Below, one piece after another: positions 39,538-53,765 of a stretch of 64,000 bases of DNA. The stretch lies in assembly GCF_037975245.1 (NCBI RefSeq), contig NC_092569.1:34262668-34326667 (forward strand), written 5' to 3'. The number at the start of each line of letters is the position of its first letter. The stretch's first letter is position 1. The DNA comes from Apostichopus japonicus (lineage: Eukaryota > Echinodermata > Holothuroidea > Aspidochirotida > Stichopodidae). Below the pieces are notes generated by a model. It made no database searches and was not told the DNA's origin. It worked only from the letters and a program-made list of their open reading frames with translations. The position numbers and the translations under genes were made by a program.

Positions 39538-39543
39538 TTTATT
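39538..39543 (-). terminator. Poly(A) signal for PRXL2B/SelU
   Basis: AATAAA on the minus strand, about 80 bases after the SECIS element and 1.63 kb after the stop. Cleavage would fall near 39515-39525. This gives a long 3' UTR with the SECIS near its end, as is common in selenoprotein mRNAs. Confidence 0.6.
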
Positions 39544-39620: not shown

Positions 39621-39699
39621 CAAAACCTGTCGCTACCATCCGTCATTCTGCATTCCGTACGTAGGAGTTTTACAGGAATGACATCATAAGTACAAGTTA
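39621..39699 (-). promoter_or_regulatory. SECIS element (form II) for selenocysteine insertion
   Basis: Reading the minus strand: ATGA at 39687-39684, helix II GTCATTC-C-TGT (39682-39672) pairing with GCAGAATGAC (39651-39642) with one bulged C, an unpaired AAAA at 39671-39668, and an extra small stem TCC/GGA with a seven-base loop. The 3' side gives GGAT at 39641-39638, so the non-Watson-Crick quartet (U-U, G-A, A-G, U-G) forms exactly at the base of helix II. Helix I below it is weaker, with wobble pairs. In a minus-strand mRNA it lies 1.5 kb after the stop of the gene with an in-frame TGA. SECIS recruits SBP2 and the Sec elongation factor. Confidence 0.88.
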
Positions 39700-41172
39700 T
39701 GAGTTGTCACATTTGGAAAATGGTATCGGCTGAACTTGGTATGAAACGTTGATAAAGAATGATAAAACAAATGATAAGAAAAATTACGAATAAATTGCTG
39801 TAACATAAACTATTATTAAACATGAAGTCATACTTTTAATTAAATATCTTTGAGATATTTTAAATTTGGCGAAATTTTGTTGAAAGAAAGATTCATCAAC
39901 ATTCAATGAGATCAAAACAAGACATCATTAAGTCAACAAGGGGTTAATTTTTTTTCTTTAAATTGTTTGGTTTTGAATACTTTATGTCACACTTGGGTCA
40001 GCTGCAAACAATCATTAAACAATGATACACTAATAACCTTAATTAGAAACATAAAATGGAGATAAAGAGGTAACCTTAATATCAAATCAAGACCTATGAA
40101 TTATCTGATTATAACTCTTGTAAATACAATAGCCTGTACTCTAACCCAGCTGTGTTAAAGTCGTTTTGCATCTTACAAATAAATTGCACAGATGATAGTA
40201 CAAATAAGAGGCTGTTGATATTTTAAGTTTCCAACAGTTACATTCCACACCTACAGTTTTAAAATTCCTAATGGTAGTTACAGGTTATCAAGTTGCTTGC
40301 TACTAAGATGTGTGAATGTTCAACATTTGCCAATAACCAATTTCACAATTAAATGAACTGCTAGTGTAAAGAGATGGAATGAGCCAAGGTGGAGGAAATG
40401 ATATTTATGAAAGGCTGTATGAAAGACAACCATGGGTACCAATGGGTACAAGCGGGAGGGGAGGGGGAGGGGGAGAGCACAAACTTAATGGATGTCTGTC
40501 CAGGTGGTCTAAGAAGAGGGGTCAGAACATTTTTTGTTGTTGAAGGAGCTTGTATGCAAAATTGTGCTATAACTTCTCGTAACTTTAGTTTTGTTGTACA
40601 AGTTTTCCTGTTGCATAGTGTCGGATAAAGCCATTTGGAAGAAACATTTGGTGTCCTTACTCGTTTTAAATATTGAAGCCATGGGCATCTTAAATATTGC
40701 AAAGTTTTAACAAAGTATTATTTGATATATTTAAAAGTAATTGTTTAGAACCCTGTTCGCAAAATATCTGCCATAGTTTAATATGAATCATTTACAACGA
40801 TTTGCGGTATAGTCTTTGATGCAACAAGAACTTATAAATTAATATTTTCCTGTTTGAGTAAACATTCAGTAACTTTATTACTGCAGACACACAATAAGTA
40901 TTTTGACGTGAGGGACATAACTAATTTCTCACTGCTTACATTGGAACAACACTTTAATTTAAGATTGCTAGATTTTGCACCTTAATTTGTTTTTTTTTGG
41001 AAATAAATAAAATCCTGTATCACAATCACACAGATAAATTTCTAGATAATTGATGGTATTGATTCATAGGTAGGTATCCCTGCTTAAGATACTTGGCACG
41101 AGTACATCACACTCTAATGGTCAACAATTATACGATTATTTTATCTTTTCTGTTACATACTAGTAATTAAAG
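39700..41172 (-). other. PRXL2B: PRXL2B/SelU 3' UTR upstream of the SECIS
   Basis: 1.47 kb between stop and SECIS with no conserved coding sequence. A C-run block at about 40455-40474 (CTCCCC repeats on the sense strand) is the only marked feature. Several ATGA words were checked for SECIS folding, and none paired as well as the one at 39687. Confidence 0.65.
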
Positions 41173-41333
41173 TTACTTTACGGTACACACAACTTCGTCG
41201 CATTCCAATTTCTTTTCACCGTCTCCTTTTGAAGAGGAATCATCGTTGGCAATGTTCAGGGCTTTCAGAACATCTTGTGGATCTATGTGGTCTGATGGCT
41301 CCTGCTGTTTGTACTCGAAAAGAACTTTGCCCT
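41173..41333 (-). CDS. PRXL2B: PRXL2B/SelU exon 5 (C-terminus and stop)
   Basis: 161 nt, acceptor GACGTCACAG, stop TAA at 41175-41173. It codes GKVLFEYKQQEPSDHIDPQD, then VLKALNI as in human, and a longer acidic/Ser tail with two Cys (LECDEVVCTVK). Confidence 0.92.
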
Positions 41334-44300
41334 CTGTGACGTCGAAACAAGAAACAAAGGAGAGAGTGAACTAATTTGTTACAGAAAATCAAAATCATAA
41401 GACGGGAGTCTTTTCGAAAAAATTTGCCATGGTGAAGAGTGTCAGAGGAGCATGAAGGGGGAGGGGGGAAGGGGTTGGAATGGCAAACATTTTGAAAAGG
41501 CTACAGATGTGTGTCAATGTACTGTACATCAATTAAACTGTTACAACCACTATGTTTAGGGGTGGGGTGAGGGGATTAGTTGTGGATTATCTCATCCAGA
41601 TTACGGATGATCATTCAAATCCAATGACAGTCTTTATGTTGTTGTTGTTGTTGTTTTTGTTGATTGACAATTCAGTTAATCTCCTGTAACAGTAAAATAA
41701 CATGTTATCACCAATTGTAAGAACCTGATTTATAAATCCAACCACAAGGAAATAATGAACGGAAATCAACTTGCAAACAAACAGCACAAAACACCTGCAA
41801 TCTATACTCAGCACAGGATATTTGTGGTTTTTAACCTTATCTTGAACAAAATCACACAAGGAAATGATATTCAAGACAAAGTAAATAACAACTTGTATAT
41901 TTTTACTGTCATGAAATCGTTTCACCTGCTTGAAGGACATGACCTGATAGTTTATACGTTCTTGAAAAAGATCAAATTTTGTTACGATCCTGAAACATGA
42001 AACCAACCTTTACTTTACTTGATACTTTACCGATACAACACTTTTATTTACTGGCATTTATGAAAAGGGCAAACTGAACATTGTGAAGTTATGATTGAGT
42101 TACCTAACATATTTAACATTAACTCTACCTAGACTACCCTATAGCTTGCCAATCGTTGTACAGTAGAGAATTCCTCGGTAGCTCTGTATAACAGTGACAG
42201 TCAAACAGGTGGAGCTACAGTATTCTATAAGTATAGTAGTAAAGGTCTGTGCTCTGGGGGTACCTCAATGTTTTAAAATGTATTGTGGAAGACTTAAAGT
42301 CTTAGCTGTAAATCAGTGATGTATCCCACTATTCATTCTACTGGTGCATTGGCCGAGTGGATAAAGGCATCAATTGGCATTTAAAGCAATGAGGCTAAAA
42401 GTCGGGAGGTTCCGATACCTGGCAGGGTCATAGTACAGGTAAGGTGGGTTTTTCATACAACAGCAATCTAATGTTTCTCCCATCTGAAATGACTGTTGAA
42501 AAGATTCCATTTTTGAGTTGGAAGCGACCCGACTTGTTAAGTTGTAATCCAGAAGCCCTAGCGGGGTCCTCCTTTAATCGTGGTCGCTTAAGCGTCGTAA
42601 ATATTAACTGCCCGATCATAATTCTTTGGTCAAACATTATTCAGCAAGCATCCAGTCCACCATAAGTTCAAATGACCATTGATCAAACCTATATTCATAT
42701 TGTACTGTATATAAACGATCTAAGCCCAGACGAGATTCCAGGAACAAAGAGGAATCTGCAGCACAACATGCGGGTAGTTCTCCCAATTGGAAAAGTTCCC
42801 GAATTAGGATTGCGTGGGCAGAGGCTCAGTGGTGTGTCGGGTGTGCAAGTTAGCAGGTTCGGTAAATGAGGAAAGGGCTTAATTAAACTGGAGACAGGTA
42901 AGAGAGGGGCGAATTTAATATATTTAGGATACCAAGAAACATGTATGAAGGAGCCCAATTTGATTTGGAGGGTTGGAGGCGGGGTGGAGGGATAAATGGC
43001 CCAAAAACTGCAACCAATATGGAAGGGGGTACAGTGCCGTAGAGTCGTAGACCTCAAAATTCGAGTAGGTTATATAAGTAATGCCAACAGTGATACATAT
43101 GATAACACTGTCTGGGACAGTTAAGGAAAGCATTGAGTGTGAACTGTGTCAAAACGCCACCAACATCAAATGTCAGATTAGTCGGGCAAGTCTGAGTTTT
43201 TTTTCTACGGAACTACTGTACTGACTCTCAACAAACCAGATTATTAGAGTTTATTTCTGTTTGCAGGGCCCGGAAACAATATCGGCATATTGCCAGAGAT
43301 TTTGATGGAAATATCTGGCTTCAGTTCAACCCACTCCTACGCCTATGCCAAATAAGACACAGGTTACACACATATCTAAATACAGCCCTGTATGTTGTTT
43401 TATGTAATATACAATCTAGAAACATACAGGAGCTACCATCCTTCCTTAGTACTTTTTAATTTGTTCAATAGTTCAAAACGCTTCCTGGCAGGAATTCATT
43501 ATGTGACAAAAATGTTAAATATGCTTTTAAAGCATAAATATTCATACTGACCTTTGCTGACAATGATCAATCCTCCATTTTGGAAACCGTCACCTTTAAT
43601 ATTTCCTTCAATTCCTGCTTCCTTTGCCTGCAAGAATGGGGTGAAAAAAGGGGAAAAGGTAGAAAACCATTCATATCAATATTGTCTACAGTACCAACAG
43701 TAGTATTTCAATGTAAGAAATATAAAAATATAAAAAATTGTATTTTTTACAGCACAATATAGTTCAAGCTAGCTTTCCTGTAATCTGAGCATCAATTCTG
43801 TGTTGTGGGGGGGGGGGGGGGGCTGGTGAGTTGTAGCTCAGTCCTCCAGGAAGAACCAGGTTTGTCGGTAAAAGGGGTTGGGGAACTCTGCCTTAAATAA
43901 AGAACTACAGTGATATTAACCGTTACAGAGTTTCAAACTTTTAGAAGATTGAAGACCAGCATAAACTGTTGGCCATCCATCTGGCCGAGGGTAAGGTGTG
44001 TTCTGTGTTCATAATCCCACACACACTCTAAGAGAAGTTGACATGACACATCTTGGCGCACTGTAGTGTCAGGATAATCCAGTGGTCTTACTGTACTTAC
44101 TTAGGAGACACAAAAACCAACCATCTTAATTTAGCTGGTTATTGATAAACAACTCTCCCTTACAGCTTTTTTGCAAACAAACTAACAATTAACTGTATAG
44201 TTCCTGGTTCTTTTCCTGGCTATTTTGGTCCTAAGTGTATTTGGGTAGCTGGCCGTTTGCATTACTTAATGATGCAAACCGTTGATAAATGTTTGTTACG

Positions 44301-47300: not shown

Positions 47301-50300
47301 AAGTGATCCAATTATTCCAAAACTATAGTTGAGAATAACAATCGTTCTACTGTTAGCATTGAAAAGCAGAATTCAAAACAAGGTAAAAGGATTTTTGCCG
47401 TAAATTTCAAGGGGCTAAAGTACAAACTTGCCTTACCACTGTGTCTGTAAATGAAGAGTTGGATAATGAAGATACAGTAGTACTGTACGCATGTGTGATA
47501 TTTACCTCACAAGCTGGCTTTCAAGTTGAAACAGTAAAATGATGGTTTCAACTGGCCATGATAATGATTTGTTTACAGAACAATGTTCAATTAAACTACA
47601 AGTGCTAACACTATCTATCTATTTTTAAAGGCATTCCTGCATGAATTAAAATATCTGTCTGTATCAGGACTGGAGTTTGAATTGTATTACAGTAGTCTGT
47701 CATCAGAAATAGCAAAGGAATTATCGCCAATTTTATCTTTATTCCCTTTCCAAGCCTTGAATATGAAAAGGTTTGTGTAACTTTTCCCTCATTGTTTTCA
47801 GTGTGGGGGGTGGGGATGGAGGGGGAGGCGGCGGGGGGAGGGTAAATTAGAGATTTGAATACTTATAAAGTGCCAGAAATAATGGATACTCTACCACACT
47901 GCAAATCTTTCCCACTGGTAAATTATTACAACCACATATGTGTTTGTGCACAATTCACTCAGTCACTCCCAGGGTACTGTGCTTGTGTAAAAAACATGTA
48001 GCATCAGCACTTGTCGGTAGGGATGTAGAAAAATTCAATCAACAAGTGTGTATATATTTAAAATGGTTTTTACAATGTAAAGTAATGAGATTTAAGGTTT
48101 ATTTTTTTATTTTGGTGGCAAAAACAAAATTCTGCAGTTACTTTACAATTTTTCGTTCTATTCAAGGAAGGAAGTAAAAAGAAGTTATTAACCCTGTGAC
48201 CTTTCACTGTATGAACTCTGTTTTAATAGGTTGATCTATAGTGAAATAATGTATACTAAACACTTCCCTGGACAGTTGGTTTGCATTTAAAATAAACAGT
48301 ACAGATATTAAACCTGTAACAAGAGACCTACGGCAAAAGGTTTGTCGTTGGTCGTCTGTTCGTCTCTGCATTTCATATCAGAGGAAGTATGAAATCGTAA
48401 AGAAGGTGTGCAAGATTTAAGAAAACAATCAGTCCATAAAGATTTGAATATTTCATACCATACCCTGTATACTGTATAGTAAACACAAAGCTCTAAGAAC
48501 AGGTTAAACTGTTAAACAGTCAAAATAGTCTGATGCACTCTACGAAAACACCAGCTGACAACATTTCGGTCTGCGATAGATTTATATCCAGCCTGCGAAA
48601 AAATTGTCCCAAAATGTTGCACAACTTGGGTCAGCGGACACCGTTAATCCCTTTTCAAGCTTGAGTATTTTAACCAGCCTATCGTTGCTCGATTTAAGAA
48701 GCTTTCATCGTCTGGTCCTCGTGGTAACTTAAATCGAGAACCCAGGACTACTTAAAAGTGACCGTTACTCGACTAACATATTTAAGGTCGATAACGATGA
48801 AACTCTTTGCAATCAAAGAAATATCTTTCACAACATTTTCTACCACTTTCACTTATGTCATCCTTTGTCGATGTTATTTCAGACATTAAAAGAGAACATT
48901 TCATACATGGTCAGAAGCTCCACGGACATATGACGGAGCATGAAAGAGCATTTCAGTACCTTGGCCAATCCTGCTCTCAGAGCCTTGGACATAACAGCAC
49001 CAGCTATGGCCAGGTAACCCAGACGCCTAAATCCTAAGGCTTTGTACGATGACTTCTTTTGATCGATGTACAATTCTGTTGAAAGAAGAAAGTGAATTAC
49101 ACTGTAAATTACATTACCAGTAAGATGATGAAGGAAGTTAGGATATAATGATAACTAATTAGATCTACTGTAGCCTAAGCTATAGCAATGGTTAGGATGG
49201 AACTAACATGGTCACATTATTGTCTGGCAGTTTTTAGGTTTTATTAATTTTATAAAAACTGCCATACAGTATTAATAACATTTGTGTGGCATTTTGCCTG
49301 TCTGTATACAGCTTTGCGATACCAAATTATAAATAATTCCCTACAACCTGAGACTTGATGATGAAGGAAATGCTAACTGTATTTAGCTCTAGCCTAAGGT
49401 ATAGCAATGGTTATGACGGAAACTAACAAGTTCACATTTCGTCTGGCAGTTTTTAGGTTTTATTAATTTTATACTTCACATAAAATACTGATACTAGCAT
49501 GCATCAGTGACATGTACAGTACACAAAAACTGCCATACAGTATTAATAACATTGGTGTGGCAATTTGCCTGTTTTGTATACAGCCACTGTATGCGATACC
49601 AAATTATAAATAATTCCCTACAACCTGAGACTTGATGATGAAGAAAATGCTAACTTTATTTAACTCTAGCCTTTAGCTATAGCAATGGTTACGACGGTTA
49701 AGACAGCTATGTCATACCAAATTATAATTCCCTAAAACTGGAGACATGGCGACGAATGAAAATCCTGTTTATCTTTCTGCTTACAAAGCATCTTGTGTGT
49801 ACACTTCTGTCTGAGGGGCTCAATTAACTAAACTAACTGTAAATAATCAGGCAGTTTTCTTTTCACAAAGCTGAAGTGACCACAAATGTGGGAGAATTCC
49901 GCAAGGGCTTACTGTATGGATTACAAATTTCAGATCGTGTGGCTTCCAATTCAATATTTGAACTCAAATTTGGAATCTTTTCAAAAATTTAGAAAGTCAT
50001 TTCAGATGGAAAACTTTCTCATGGATGAAAAACCCACCTTACTATGATCTGGCTGGGAATCGAATCTATGAACCTCCCGTTTACCAAACCAGATTCAAGC
50101 CTCATTGCTTCAAATGCCACTGCTTTTATCCGTTTGGATAAACCTAATCTTCTTATTTTAGGCATTTCCTTACTAACCAGCTACAGGTCATCTGTTGTGA
50201 CTTCTGCAAGATATTCCTACTGCCTGCATACTAGTAATTGTTTAACAAAACTAAGTACTGTACATTCCTATGATCAATTAATCCTGAACAGGAGGCTTGC

Positions 50301-53300
50301 AGACAGATTTTCTGAATCCTGTAATGTTTTTCAAATTCCCCACTAATGTAAATGTGGCCTACGGAAGCTTACAATGACCATCCTATTAAAAGCATTAAGT
50401 CTCCTGGATGCCTCCATGACATCTACAGTACTAGATGGGAAGTAAGCAATCAAGCAAGCAAGCAATCAAGTGATTAGCATGAATACTTAAAATGACATTA
50501 AAGCCTGCACATACTTTCTCACAACTTGCAGGTCCTTTCATTAGCTTTGACCTACCGGTATACATGAATGTTCAGCAGAACTTTCTACTAATCATGTAAT
50601 TTTTAAATTATATTACAGGATACACAGGGTACACCCAGAATTGTGACTTGTCGATTGGTTACAAAGTTTTAACAGTGGCCAGCTAGATAAATTACTGTAC
50701 AGTATATATAGCCTCCCCTGCTATTAATTAATCCCAGGCATCAAGGAGGCTTAGGTTAGCCAAATTTAAATGGTTCAATAATTGGAAAATGAGAGCAATA
50801 ATATGTATTAGAGATTCTGAATGCCCCAAGAGCATTGTAGTTTTTGACCCATACAAAAATAGCTGTTGATCGTTACTGTAAATTGCACATTATGATATAA
50901 CTGGTTATCAAAGTCTGAGGTACTGATCCTGTACAGTATGTACCAACAGGTACAGTACATGTGCTATAAACATAGAAGAAACAGGCATCAGCTACCACCG
51001 ATACCAAAGCAGGAACTATGATAGAACAAATTAACAGACATATTTACAGGTAGGTTACATGTGTACAGTTTCATAGTATGCAATACATTTGAAGCTACAG
51101 TCCACACAACCTGAGCATGGGACACTCACTGTAACACAACCTGAGCTTAGGACACACACTGTTCGAATGTTCGGTCCACTGTATCACAACCTGAGCATAG
51201 GACACTCACTGTATAGTCCACTCTACACACAACCTGAGCATAGTCTGTATCACACTACTGTAAAGTTTTACTTACACACACAACCTGAGCATGGGACACT
51301 CACTGTAACACAACCTGAGCATAGGACACACACTGTTTGGTCCAAGTGCTGTATACATCACAACCTGAGCATAGGACTCTCACTGTATAGTCTATTCTAC
51401 ACACAACCTGAGCATAGGACACTCACTGTATAATCCACTGTATCACACTACTGTAAATTTTACTTACACACACAACGTGAGCATGGGATATCACTGTGAC
51501 ACAACCTGAGCTTAGGACACACACTGTTTGGTCCACTGTATCACAACCTGAGCTAAGGTCACTCACTGTATAGACCACTCTACACACAACCTGAGCATAG
51601 GTCACTCATGGTATAGTCCACTGCTGTATAGTCCACTGTATGAAACTTACCGCCTGACCAGTATTTGCCTTGCACAAATTCCTCCACTCCGAGCTCCTCG
51701 ACCCCTACCCCAACTAGACGCACGTTATTAGCGTCGAGCTGAGGCTTGATAGCGCTGAGCTGCTTAGCGCCCAGCCGACACAAGGGTCATCCAAATCTCC
51801 TCAGGAAATGGATGACGCAAACCTGGTTTTCCCAAAAGGATCCAAGTTTGACCATCTGCAGGAAAGGGAAACAGGACAGTATATCATTATGGGAACATCA
51901 ATTCTCAAAAACAGAAAGCAAACAGGACAGCCATTTGAACTTTTCCAGAAAAGAAGTCAGGCCTTTTTTAGAGTGACACTTGGTCTAATGAAAAATGTAA
52001 TATGTAGAAGGTGACACTGAATATTCTTGTAGTTAATACAATCTGCACATATGGTGTAGTTTTGAGGTGATTGGTTTCAACAATGATCAAAGGAATTACA
52101 ATTTATCATGTTTGAAACAGCATTATTGACAGTCTATTTGCAAAGAAAAGAAAAAAAATCAAATTGTGGCAACAAAAAACAGAGGATGTACTGTAAGCAA
52201 GGAGAAGAAATGATATTTTTGATTTTAATTTTTTAATTTAATATAACACAGAGCTGCAGCCTAACATTTCAACTTTGTGATAGAGATGTTAAGTAATGAT
52301 TAAGAGGCCCTTCACATGATCTAGAAACATTATGTTTACTCCTAAAATTACATAAGTGTTGTTTATAGCTTGACTAGTTCAATCAGGTTGCAAATTTACA
52401 AAATAATCACTGTAAGTGATATTTGATTTTGCATTCTGCTTATACTTAGCAACCAACTGATACAGTAAGCAGTAAGAATCTGCAGTTTCCATTAAATCAT
52501 CAATAACTTGTGATGGAATTAATGCTCATACTCTACATTGTGAAAATGTGCTTGAGGGAGTTTCTTAATGCAATTTTCCTTTTCAGTAATACATACTCTA
52601 TGGGATGGTTAAGACTATCATGGTAATCAAGAAAGATGAATAAGAAAACAAAGGATCCTATGAAAGGATTTCATCTCTTTGGAGGCATTATGATACTACT
52701 TCAATACAAGCGACGAATGGAACCTACAGACTGTTACTTTTCAAACTGAATTCTATTAACCTATAGTAGGGCCATATATCACAGAACTTGTCTTAATGTT
52801 ATTGTTTGGTAGATTACAGTAATATACAAGTAATTATTTTCTACAGTATCAAATGGATTTATTAGGTTAATATCATGAGGAGTTGGTCCTCCTGTAGGAT
52901 GAGATTTTGAAATCTCATTCCATTTAGGTGTACATTATGGTTATGCCACTCTGTCCTTGGCTTGATCCTGCCTTCGTAACAATGCTGCTTTACAGTACAA
53001 GAAGGTACTGAACATAAGGAAGCATGTCCATGTGAATTGTGAAAGGAATGGAAGTCAATATCTTGTGTTATACCAATACTAGTAGTAACCTACTGTACTA
53101 CTACAAGTGTGTCACATTAAAAGTTACAACTTTGCTTCTGTACAAACTAGCAGTGTGCAGATCTTACGCAAAATGTATTAAAAGTAGTACATGTACTAAA
53201 TCTCAGGTAGGAATGTACAACATATTCTTGTATATATTTACAAAGTGGCTATTGTTACGACTAGTCGTAAGAATAATTCCCGACTATGCATGCGCAGTTG

Positions 53301-53765
53301 CTATTTTCATTACCAGGCGTACTATTTTTACGACGAGGAGAAACAATAATTTCCGGTTAGGGTTAGGGTAAGGGTTAGGATTGAGGTTTAGGGTTATGTT
53401 TAGGGTTAGGGTTACCCCTACTACACGCGCAGTTGCTTTATTTACTTTACTGCGCTTGAATTTGCCTTTGTTGTAAGAATAGTTTATAAATAATTGTTAC
53501 GACTCGTCGTAAGAATAGCCACGGCCATATATTTACTTTCGATTCGTGAAATTGGTACTGTCAGACTCAGAGTAGGCTACTGTAGAACTAAATTTACTTT
53601 GTAAAAACTAAAACACTAGTAGCACTTACTACTACACTAGGTCTATTCAGACTCAGAGAGGTTAATCACAAATTTATCAGTAAAAAGCAGAATGGTATAA
53701 AATTATCTCACCTCTCCGGTACTGACACTCTTCACTAGATTATTGGCTATCTTCGATGCATCCAT
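41173..53765 (-). CDS. PRXL2B: Selenoprotein U-type PRXL2B (peroxiredoxin-like 2B / prostamide-PGF synthase family)
   Basis: Five minus-strand exons join in phase: 53765-53712, 51855-51651, 49075-48960, 43627-43552 and 41333-41173, giving 203 residues (human PRXL2B has 198). The thioredoxin-like fold is marked by FWENQVCVIHFLRRFG, a redox motif U-P-L-C at residues 41-44, NNVRLVGVGVEELGVEEF (human HGVRLVGVGPEALGLQEF), ELYIDQKKSSYKALGF, GIEGNIKGDGFQNGGLIIV and VLFEYKQQEPSDHIDPQDV. Position 41 is an in-frame TGA (51789-51787) where human has Cys, with conserved sequence on both sides in the same exon and a SECIS downstream. The human protein reduces prostaglandin H2 and its ethanolamide; the wider SelU/PRXL2 family has Sec or Cys members. 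Its own substrate is unknown. Confidence 0.92.
41334..43551. other. PRXL2B/SelU intron 4
   Basis: It holds purine-rich tracts near 41455-41480 and a forward-strand tRNA-derived SINE (42345-42540). No exon is seen between them. Confidence 0.6.
42345..42540 (+). repeat. tRNA-derived SINE
   Basis: The head resembles a Leu/Ser-type tRNA: A box TGGCCGAGTGG at 42350-42360 and B box GGTTCCGATACC at 42408-42419. A tail follows (AAGGTGGGTTTTTCAT, CCATCTGAAATGACT, GAAAAGATTCC) that is shared with the minus-strand copy at 50145. Arms do not form a good cloverleaf, so it is not taken as a working tRNA. Confidence 0.8.
43552..43627 (-). CDS. PRXL2B: PRXL2B/SelU exon 4
   Basis: 76 nt, acceptor CATTCTTGCAG, donor GTCAGT, entering phase 0 and leaving phase 1. 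It codes KEAGIEGNIKGDGFQNGG and LIIVSK, matching human GIQGNLSGDLLQSGGLLVV. Confidence 0.94.
43807..43822. repeat. 16-base G homopolymer
   Basis: Uninterrupted G run in PRXL2B intron 3. The length is likely to vary and is prone to sequencing error. Confidence 0.95.
44813..44851 (-). ncRNA. Hammerhead-ribozyme-like motif of a Penelope-type repeat
   Basis: The minus strand reads GCCT, CTGAAGA, A, GATC-CTGCTGA-GATC, GAAAC, GTC, AGGC. This has the hammerhead order: stem I (GCCT/AGGC), the CUGANGA box, a stem II hairpin, GAAA, a one-pair stem III (C-G) and the UC cleavage site. Penelope-like elements are known to carry hammerheads with very short stem III. An extra A before stem II departs from the consensus, so activity is doubtful. 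Confidence 0.4.
45896..45957 (+). repeat. Short dispersed repeat, copy 2
   Basis: Partner of 9196-9255, with the same order of GGATTCT, GGGACGCAAT, AGCCAGGGAC and CTTCAAATTG. Unclassified. Confidence 0.6.
48960..49075 (-). CDS. PRXL2B: PRXL2B/SelU exon 3
   Basis: 116 nt, acceptor TTCTTTCAACAG, donor GTACTG (less usual +4 to +6 bases). It codes ELYIDQKKSSYKALGFRR, like human ELYLDESKQLYKELGFKR, then a hydrophobic helix ending ALRAGLAK. Confidence 0.93.
49165..49720. repeat. ~240-bp direct repeat, about 2.4 copies
   Basis: Copies begin near 49165, 49385 and 49665 (TAGCCT, AGCTATAGCAATGGTTA) and continue through GTCTGGCAGTTTTTAGG, AACTGCCATACAGTATTA and CAACCTGAGACTTGATGATG. Each full copy contains an inverted pair GGCAGTTTT/AAAACTGCC. 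The second has an extra ~40 bases between the arms, and the third is cut short. Confidence 0.85.
49880..50145 (-). repeat. tRNA-derived SINE, minus-strand copy
   Basis: On the minus strand: GGATAAAAGCAGTGGCATTT, GCAATGAGGCTTGAA, B box AGATTCGATTCCC (50066-50054), then AAGGTGGGTTTTTCAT and a CCATCTGAAATGACTT tail. It parallels the copy at 42345. Confidence 0.75.
51090..51640. repeat. Minisatellite of CACAACCTGAGCATAGGACAC units
   Basis: About a dozen units share ACAACCTGAGC, A/T, TAGGACAC and CACTGTATAGTCCAC blocks with variable spacing. The array ends only about 10 bases from the exon 2 donor at 51650. Confidence 0.9.
51651..51855 (-). CDS. PRXL2B: PRXL2B/SelU exon 2 with the Sec TGA
   Basis: 205 nt from the acceptor CTTTCCTGCAG to the donor GTAAGT, entering phase 0 and leaving phase 1. 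TGA at 51789-51787 lies between RRFG and PLCR. Both sides of it match the family in the same frame and no splice site could remove it. The neighbouring Cys (residue 44) is the resolving partner. Confidence 0.95.
53245..53522. mobile_element. 278-bp MITE with palindromic arms and telomere-like TTAGGG core
   Basis: The left end is GTGGCTATTGTTACGACTAG and the right end, inverted, is GTGGCTATTCTTACGACGAG. Each arm itself contains a near-palindrome (TTACGACTAGTCGTAA). The centre (53355-53415) is a run of GGTTAGGGTTAGGGT with variants. No coding sequence is present. The target-site duplication was not resolved. Confidence 0.75.
53355..53415. repeat. Interstitial telomere-like (TTAGGG)n tract
   Basis: Several TTAGGG units with degenerate ones (TAAGGGT, TTTAGGGTTATG). 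It lies wholly within the MITE, so it travelled with the element rather than marking a chromosome end. Confidence 0.85.
53712..53765 (-). CDS. PRXL2B: PRXL2B/SelU exon 1 (start)
   Basis: 18 codons from ATG (53765-53763) to a GTGAGA donor, phase 0. MDASKIANNLVKSVSTGE aligns with the human start (VGACILKHAVTGE). No signal peptide is seen, so a cytosolic protein is expected. Confidence 0.85.

Follow-up and report, generated by a model that had tools for sequence, protein, structure and literature searches.

The 64,000-nucleotide (nt) stretch of Apostichopus japonicus DNA analysed here (contig NC_092569.1, positions 34,262,668 to 34,326,667; hereafter the window) holds on its minus strand a predicted five-exon gene that is PRXL2B, and the redox motif encoded by its second exon contains an in-frame TGA. 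Spliced together, the five coding segments (Table 1) give a frame of 612 nt, made of 203 codons and a terminal TAA, in which every intron is of the GT-AG type and all phases are compatible. The TGA is the sole in-frame stop ahead of that TAA; the translation of exon 2 around it reads ...FLRRFG-TGA-PLCRLG..., and 162 intact codons follow. Across the five exons there is no further stop and no frameshift or damaged splice site, in keeping with the view of the initial annotation that the gene is otherwise whole and not decayed, and the coordinates which that annotation gave for exon 2, as well as its reading RRFG-TGA-PLCR, are exact. Its proposal that open reading frame calling could start downstream at MCRLG is valid only if TTG is accepted as a start codon, which is a bacterial convention; in the spliced translation, the next in-frame ATG after the TGA lies in exon 3. 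The intron adjoining exon 2 contains tandem-like repeats (ACACAACCTGAGCATAGGACACTCACTGTA...), spotted by eye at 51100-51640 of the window.

The identity of the protein was examined with cysteine (Cys) written in place of the TGA. PRXL2B is the only strong match of the translation among solved structures, with residues 2-181 aligning to residues 5-185 of Protein Data Bank (PDB) entry 9us9 (prostamide/prostaglandin F synthase; E 7.2e-48), a sequence that we recognise as human, the structure listing giving the molecule name only. Identity amounts to 82 of 181 columns, the TGA column with its written Cys being counted among the 82, and divides into 16 of 39 columns before the TGA and 65 of 141 after it; the alignment is gap-free across the site, its one gap lying near the C-terminal end. 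Coding similarity thus continues unbroken on both sides in a single frame, and the TGA does sit where human PRXL2B has a Cys, as had been claimed from the letters of the DNA: its column is residue 44 of the PRXL2B structures, a Cys in 9us9; in 9usa, presumably an active-site mutant, Ser stands at this residue and replaces the second Cys of the redox motif as well. The RRFG(C/U)xxC motif is present along with full-length likeness to PRXL2B. In Pfam, the translation scores 92 bits against AhpC-TSA_2 (PF13911; cut-off 27), while AhpC-TSA and Redoxin stay under their cut-offs, and in NCBIfam a SelL-related match of 81.3 bits falls under the cut-off of 120.

Downstream of the coding sequence, on the coding strand and 1.48 kb past the stop codon, lies a hairpin that matches the full Rfam model of the selenocysteine insertion sequence (SECIS; RF00031, SECIS_1). 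It is the sole SECIS_1 match in the window (64 kb, both strands, E<=10); its E value of 1.4 applies to a search over 4227 Rfam families and, once divided by that number, becomes about 3e-4 for SECIS_1 alone. Its predicted fold has a 7-bp stem (GTCATTC/GAATGAC) after the ATGA, a bulged C and a 4-bp stem (TGTA/TGCA), followed at the apex by an unpaired AAAC, a small stem (TCC/GGA) and the GGAT. We infer that the stretch containing this hairpin is the 3' untranslated region (UTR) of PRXL2B. Since it is the Rfam match and the placement that carry the assignment, other models being less clear, the hairpin is graded as a likely rather than a certain SECIS.

Table 1. Features of the PRXL2B locus (positions are those of the window)
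Feature	Position	Strand	Remarks
PRXL2B exon 1	53712..53765	-	codons 1-18; ATG start; GT donor; phase 0
PRXL2B exon 2	51651..51855	-	AG acceptor and GT donor; holds redox motif U-P-L-C
In-frame TGA, probable selenocysteine codon	51787..51789	-	codon 41; opposite human PRXL2B Cys44
Possible selenocysteine-redefinition-like element (weak)	51707..51789	-	TGA and next 80 nt; fold
PRXL2B exon 3	48960..49075	-	spliced-frame reconstruction
PRXL2B exon 4	43552..43627	-	spliced-frame reconstruction
PRXL2B exon 5, coding part	41173..41333	-	TAA at end
Upstream AATAAA	40874..40879	-	consensus only
SECIS candidate	39626..39696	-	RF00031 (SECIS_1), 25.3 bits, full model matched; fold
SECIS candidate, core parts	ATGA 39687-39684; unpaired AAA 39670-39668; GGAT 39641-39638	-	
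AATAAA poly(A) signal	39538..39543	-	83 nt beyond SECIS candidate; consensus only

The gene very probably encodes a selenocysteine (Sec) form of PRXL2B, the prostamide/prostaglandin F synthase. This reading, already put forward in the initial annotation and strengthened here, rests on the position of the TGA at the equivalent of Cys44 in an intact gene for which no second copy was found, on the SECIS-like element on the right strand, and on the presence in the same genome of Sec machinery genes and of other genes with TGA at a Sec site. A genome search at E<=10 returned five PRXL2B matches, which are the five exons of this very gene, so that no Cys-coding second copy is seen.

The machinery, which had been named as a check on the Sec reading, is represented by the main exon of SepSecS (370.8 bits), the fourth domain of eEFSec (89.8 bits), a partial PSTK (two pieces of 50.1 and 44.2 bits, under the whole-protein cut-off) and two selenophosphate synthetase genes (eight exon matches, each under the whole-protein cut-off). 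The latter two genes are neighbours (loci L018-L020, contig C20, 25.958-25.982 Mb), and each has a TGA as its Sec codon (KG-TGA-GCKVP and TG-TGA-GCKVP); a SECIS_1 match lies downstream of one (L018), none being found for the other in the stretches searched. As controls for the hairpin of PRXL2B, seven loci (L013-L019) around other suspected Sec genes were searched with RF00031, which scored 35.2 bits in L013, 34.0 in L014, 28.3 in L018 and 25.2 in L017. All four matches are on the same strand as the TGA-containing exon and downstream of it, with which they presumably share one transcript, and the 25.3 bits of the PRXL2B element accordingly fall at the low end for the elements of this genome. 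RF00031 gave no match in the control loci L015, L016 and L019, nor in L020 and L021; in L016, a home-made SECIS grammar picked out a sequence resembling the L017 element.

Five further exons on contig C8 (L001, L002, L003, L004 and L007) show an in-frame stop-x-x-stop arrangement and fall in two clusters, at about 36.95-37.06 Mb and 41.62-41.63 Mb; for four of these exons, both stop codons are confirmed to be TGA. The name selenoprotein L (SelL) for these genes is our own assumption, prompted by a U-x-x-U motif typical of that protein; in these terms, the C8 exons are a small predicted SelL expansion. Selenoprotein L of this genome resembles the PRXL2B gene in being a Prx-like2 (PF13911) protein with Sec codons in its redox motif and SECIS_1 downstream (in three of the four loci examined), but it has two Sec codons (TGA-x-x-TGA) and belongs to a different subfamily. 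Another Prx-like2 exon on C8 (position 7097142; L008/L015) reads RYYG-TGA-PVCRNH, a UxxC arrangement; no solved structure matched this exon convincingly, and a search of about 18 kb downstream of it gave no SECIS_1 match for the gene (L015, L021). Elsewhere in the genome, five COX1 fragments lie on contig C29 (14745-31219), besides a longer match on C35; they may be mitochondrial insertions in the nuclear genome or a mitochondrial copy that was misassembled. The COX1 of C35 scores 835.5 bits against chain 8ugh_4A when translated with the echinoderm/flatworm mitochondrial code and 795.9 bits with the invertebrate code, and each of its nine AAA codons aligns with an Asn of that chain, as suits an echinoderm, although flatworms use this code too.

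Several results weigh against a Sec form of PRXL2B. At 25.3 bits, the SECIS candidate lies below the Rfam gathering score of 35, and a search of the window at that score gave no Rfam match at all, the candidate being seen only with relaxed thresholds. The upstream AATAAA (at 40879), if used, would yield mRNAs lacking the SECIS. A covariance model built from five SECIS elements of the same genome, taken from SelL and selenophosphate synthetase genes, gave the candidate no better than second place in the 3' region (10.3 bits; E 0.18, filters off), and in a default scan of the whole window it missed the candidate and returned a single match, at 39944-39875 (E 0.39); among the five elements of this model are two pairs of closely related sequences, and its selenophosphate synthetase row is, as we read it, about one column off in the stem. 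The home-made grammar is insensitive, as it found two of the four control Rfam elements and missed those of L013 and L014. Finally, tRNA-Sec was not identified, either by two patterns, which gave no match, or by an Rfam search in which 53 of 41368 first-look candidates were scored; this search yielded 13 matches, each 81 nt long and under the family cut-off, and 11 of them sit close together in two groups on C8 and C13. The outcome is no evidence that tRNA-Sec is absent.

Other searches bear on the hairpin as well. The grammar, which is unspecific too, gave three matches in the window, to be compared with a mean of 1.58 per shuffle over 60 shuffles, and the candidate is the most stable of the three. 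In a genome scan with RF00031, in which 150 of 13796 candidates were scored, the PRXL2B element is not among the seven matches listed. The same 3' region holds a second hairpin on the minus strand (39875-39944), with an ATGA and a 7-bp outer helix (TTGTTGA/TCAACAA); it has no Rfam match and, judged by eye, is without the usual AA bulge.

Three other explanations of the TGA were weighed, all of them far less probable than a Sec codon. The best placed, though itself very unlikely, is a PRXL2B allele that is null or decaying, with the TGA as a genuine nonsense mutation: the protein would be cut short at codon 41 of 203, and the genome is that of one individual only. Against this, the five exons carry no further lesion; the stop is a TGA and falls precisely on the residue at which a Sec would be expected; a SECIS-like element lies downstream on the right strand; and the genome search showed no second copy with a Cys codon to take its place. 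Slightly less credible still is that the codon is really TGC or TGT for Cys, each one base away from TGA, and that the TGA reflects a misassembly or a rare variant; the genome rests on PacBio HiFi reads, provided that it is the assembly described in the available part of PMC10344927, and a random error would not be accompanied by a SECIS-like element. Least probable of all is that the TGA is spliced out to leave a shorter protein that lacks the redox motif, for although exon 2 has seven in-phase AG dinucleotides after the TGA, a later acceptor would remove the catalytic motif and skipping of the exon shifts the frame into a stop after 13 codons.

If the TGA is a Sec codon, the SECIS would recruit SBP2 and eEFSec/tRNA-Sec, and UGA 41 would be decoded as Sec. 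The RNA next to the codon may contribute: the 83 nt from the TGA onward fold at -36.5 kcal/mol (z -3.2), and one in 200 shuffles folds as well. Redefinition elements occur in some selenoprotein mRNAs, and this stretch is possibly such an element; it is given little weight, as G+C-rich coding sequence can fold alike. The product would be a reductase of thioredoxin fold, 203 residues long, whose redox motif is U-P-L-C. By analogy with human PRXL2B and other UxxC redox proteins, Sec would be the attacking residue: the selenol of the sea cucumber enzyme would attack a peroxide or endoperoxide and the downstream Cys would resolve it as a selenenylsulfide, the reducing power probably coming from thioredoxin.

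Human PRXL2B (9us9, 9usa) and the sea cucumber protein are alike in their near gap-free alignment, in the position of the CxxC motif and in the PF13911 domain; they differ in that the human sequence has Cys44 (9us9) where the sea cucumber gene has a TGA, with a SECIS-like element after the gene. Sec forms are also known from SelU1/PRXL2A of fish and birds, which belong to the same PRXL2 family but are a different paralogue. An earlier paper presented SelU1, SelU2 and SelU3 as fish selenoproteins (PMC2397514, in its available part), a view revised in 2012 by Mariotti et al., who in the available part of their paper (PMC3316567) place every Sec-containing SelU of vertebrates in SelU1. In a metazoan survey of the same year by Jiang et al. 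(PMC3473315), the lineage of prostamide/prostaglandin F synthase goes under the name SelU3, and the available part of that paper reports eight SelU3 proteins. The sea cucumber gene resembles the Sec-containing invertebrate SelU3 of that survey, as far as they are described there, in being a Sec form of this lineage, and differs from that set in that the Sec form here belongs to a deuterostome. A literature search covering titles and abstract openings found no report of a Sec-containing PRXL2B in an echinoderm.

A Sec PRXL2B in an echinoderm contradicts the published single early replacement of Sec by Cys; the evolutionary consequence is a modest one. Probably, at least one deuterostome kept the Sec form, and the change from Sec to Cys was not a single event preceding the divergence of deuterostomes but took place at least twice, on the path to sea urchins and in chordates. 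Independent losses of Sec on the sea urchin and the chordate branches are the simplest reading; that holothurians regained Sec is conceivable in formal terms but unlikely.

If the Sec reading is true, the synthesis of prostaglandin F and prostamide in this animal would depend on selenium. Predictors that take every TGA for a stop would cut the enzyme short or miss it altogether, and PRXL2B may for that reason be absent from annotations. The sea cucumber enzyme, set against that of sea urchin or human, would also offer a natural Sec/Cys pair with which to probe what selenium contributes to a prostaglandin-metabolising reductase.
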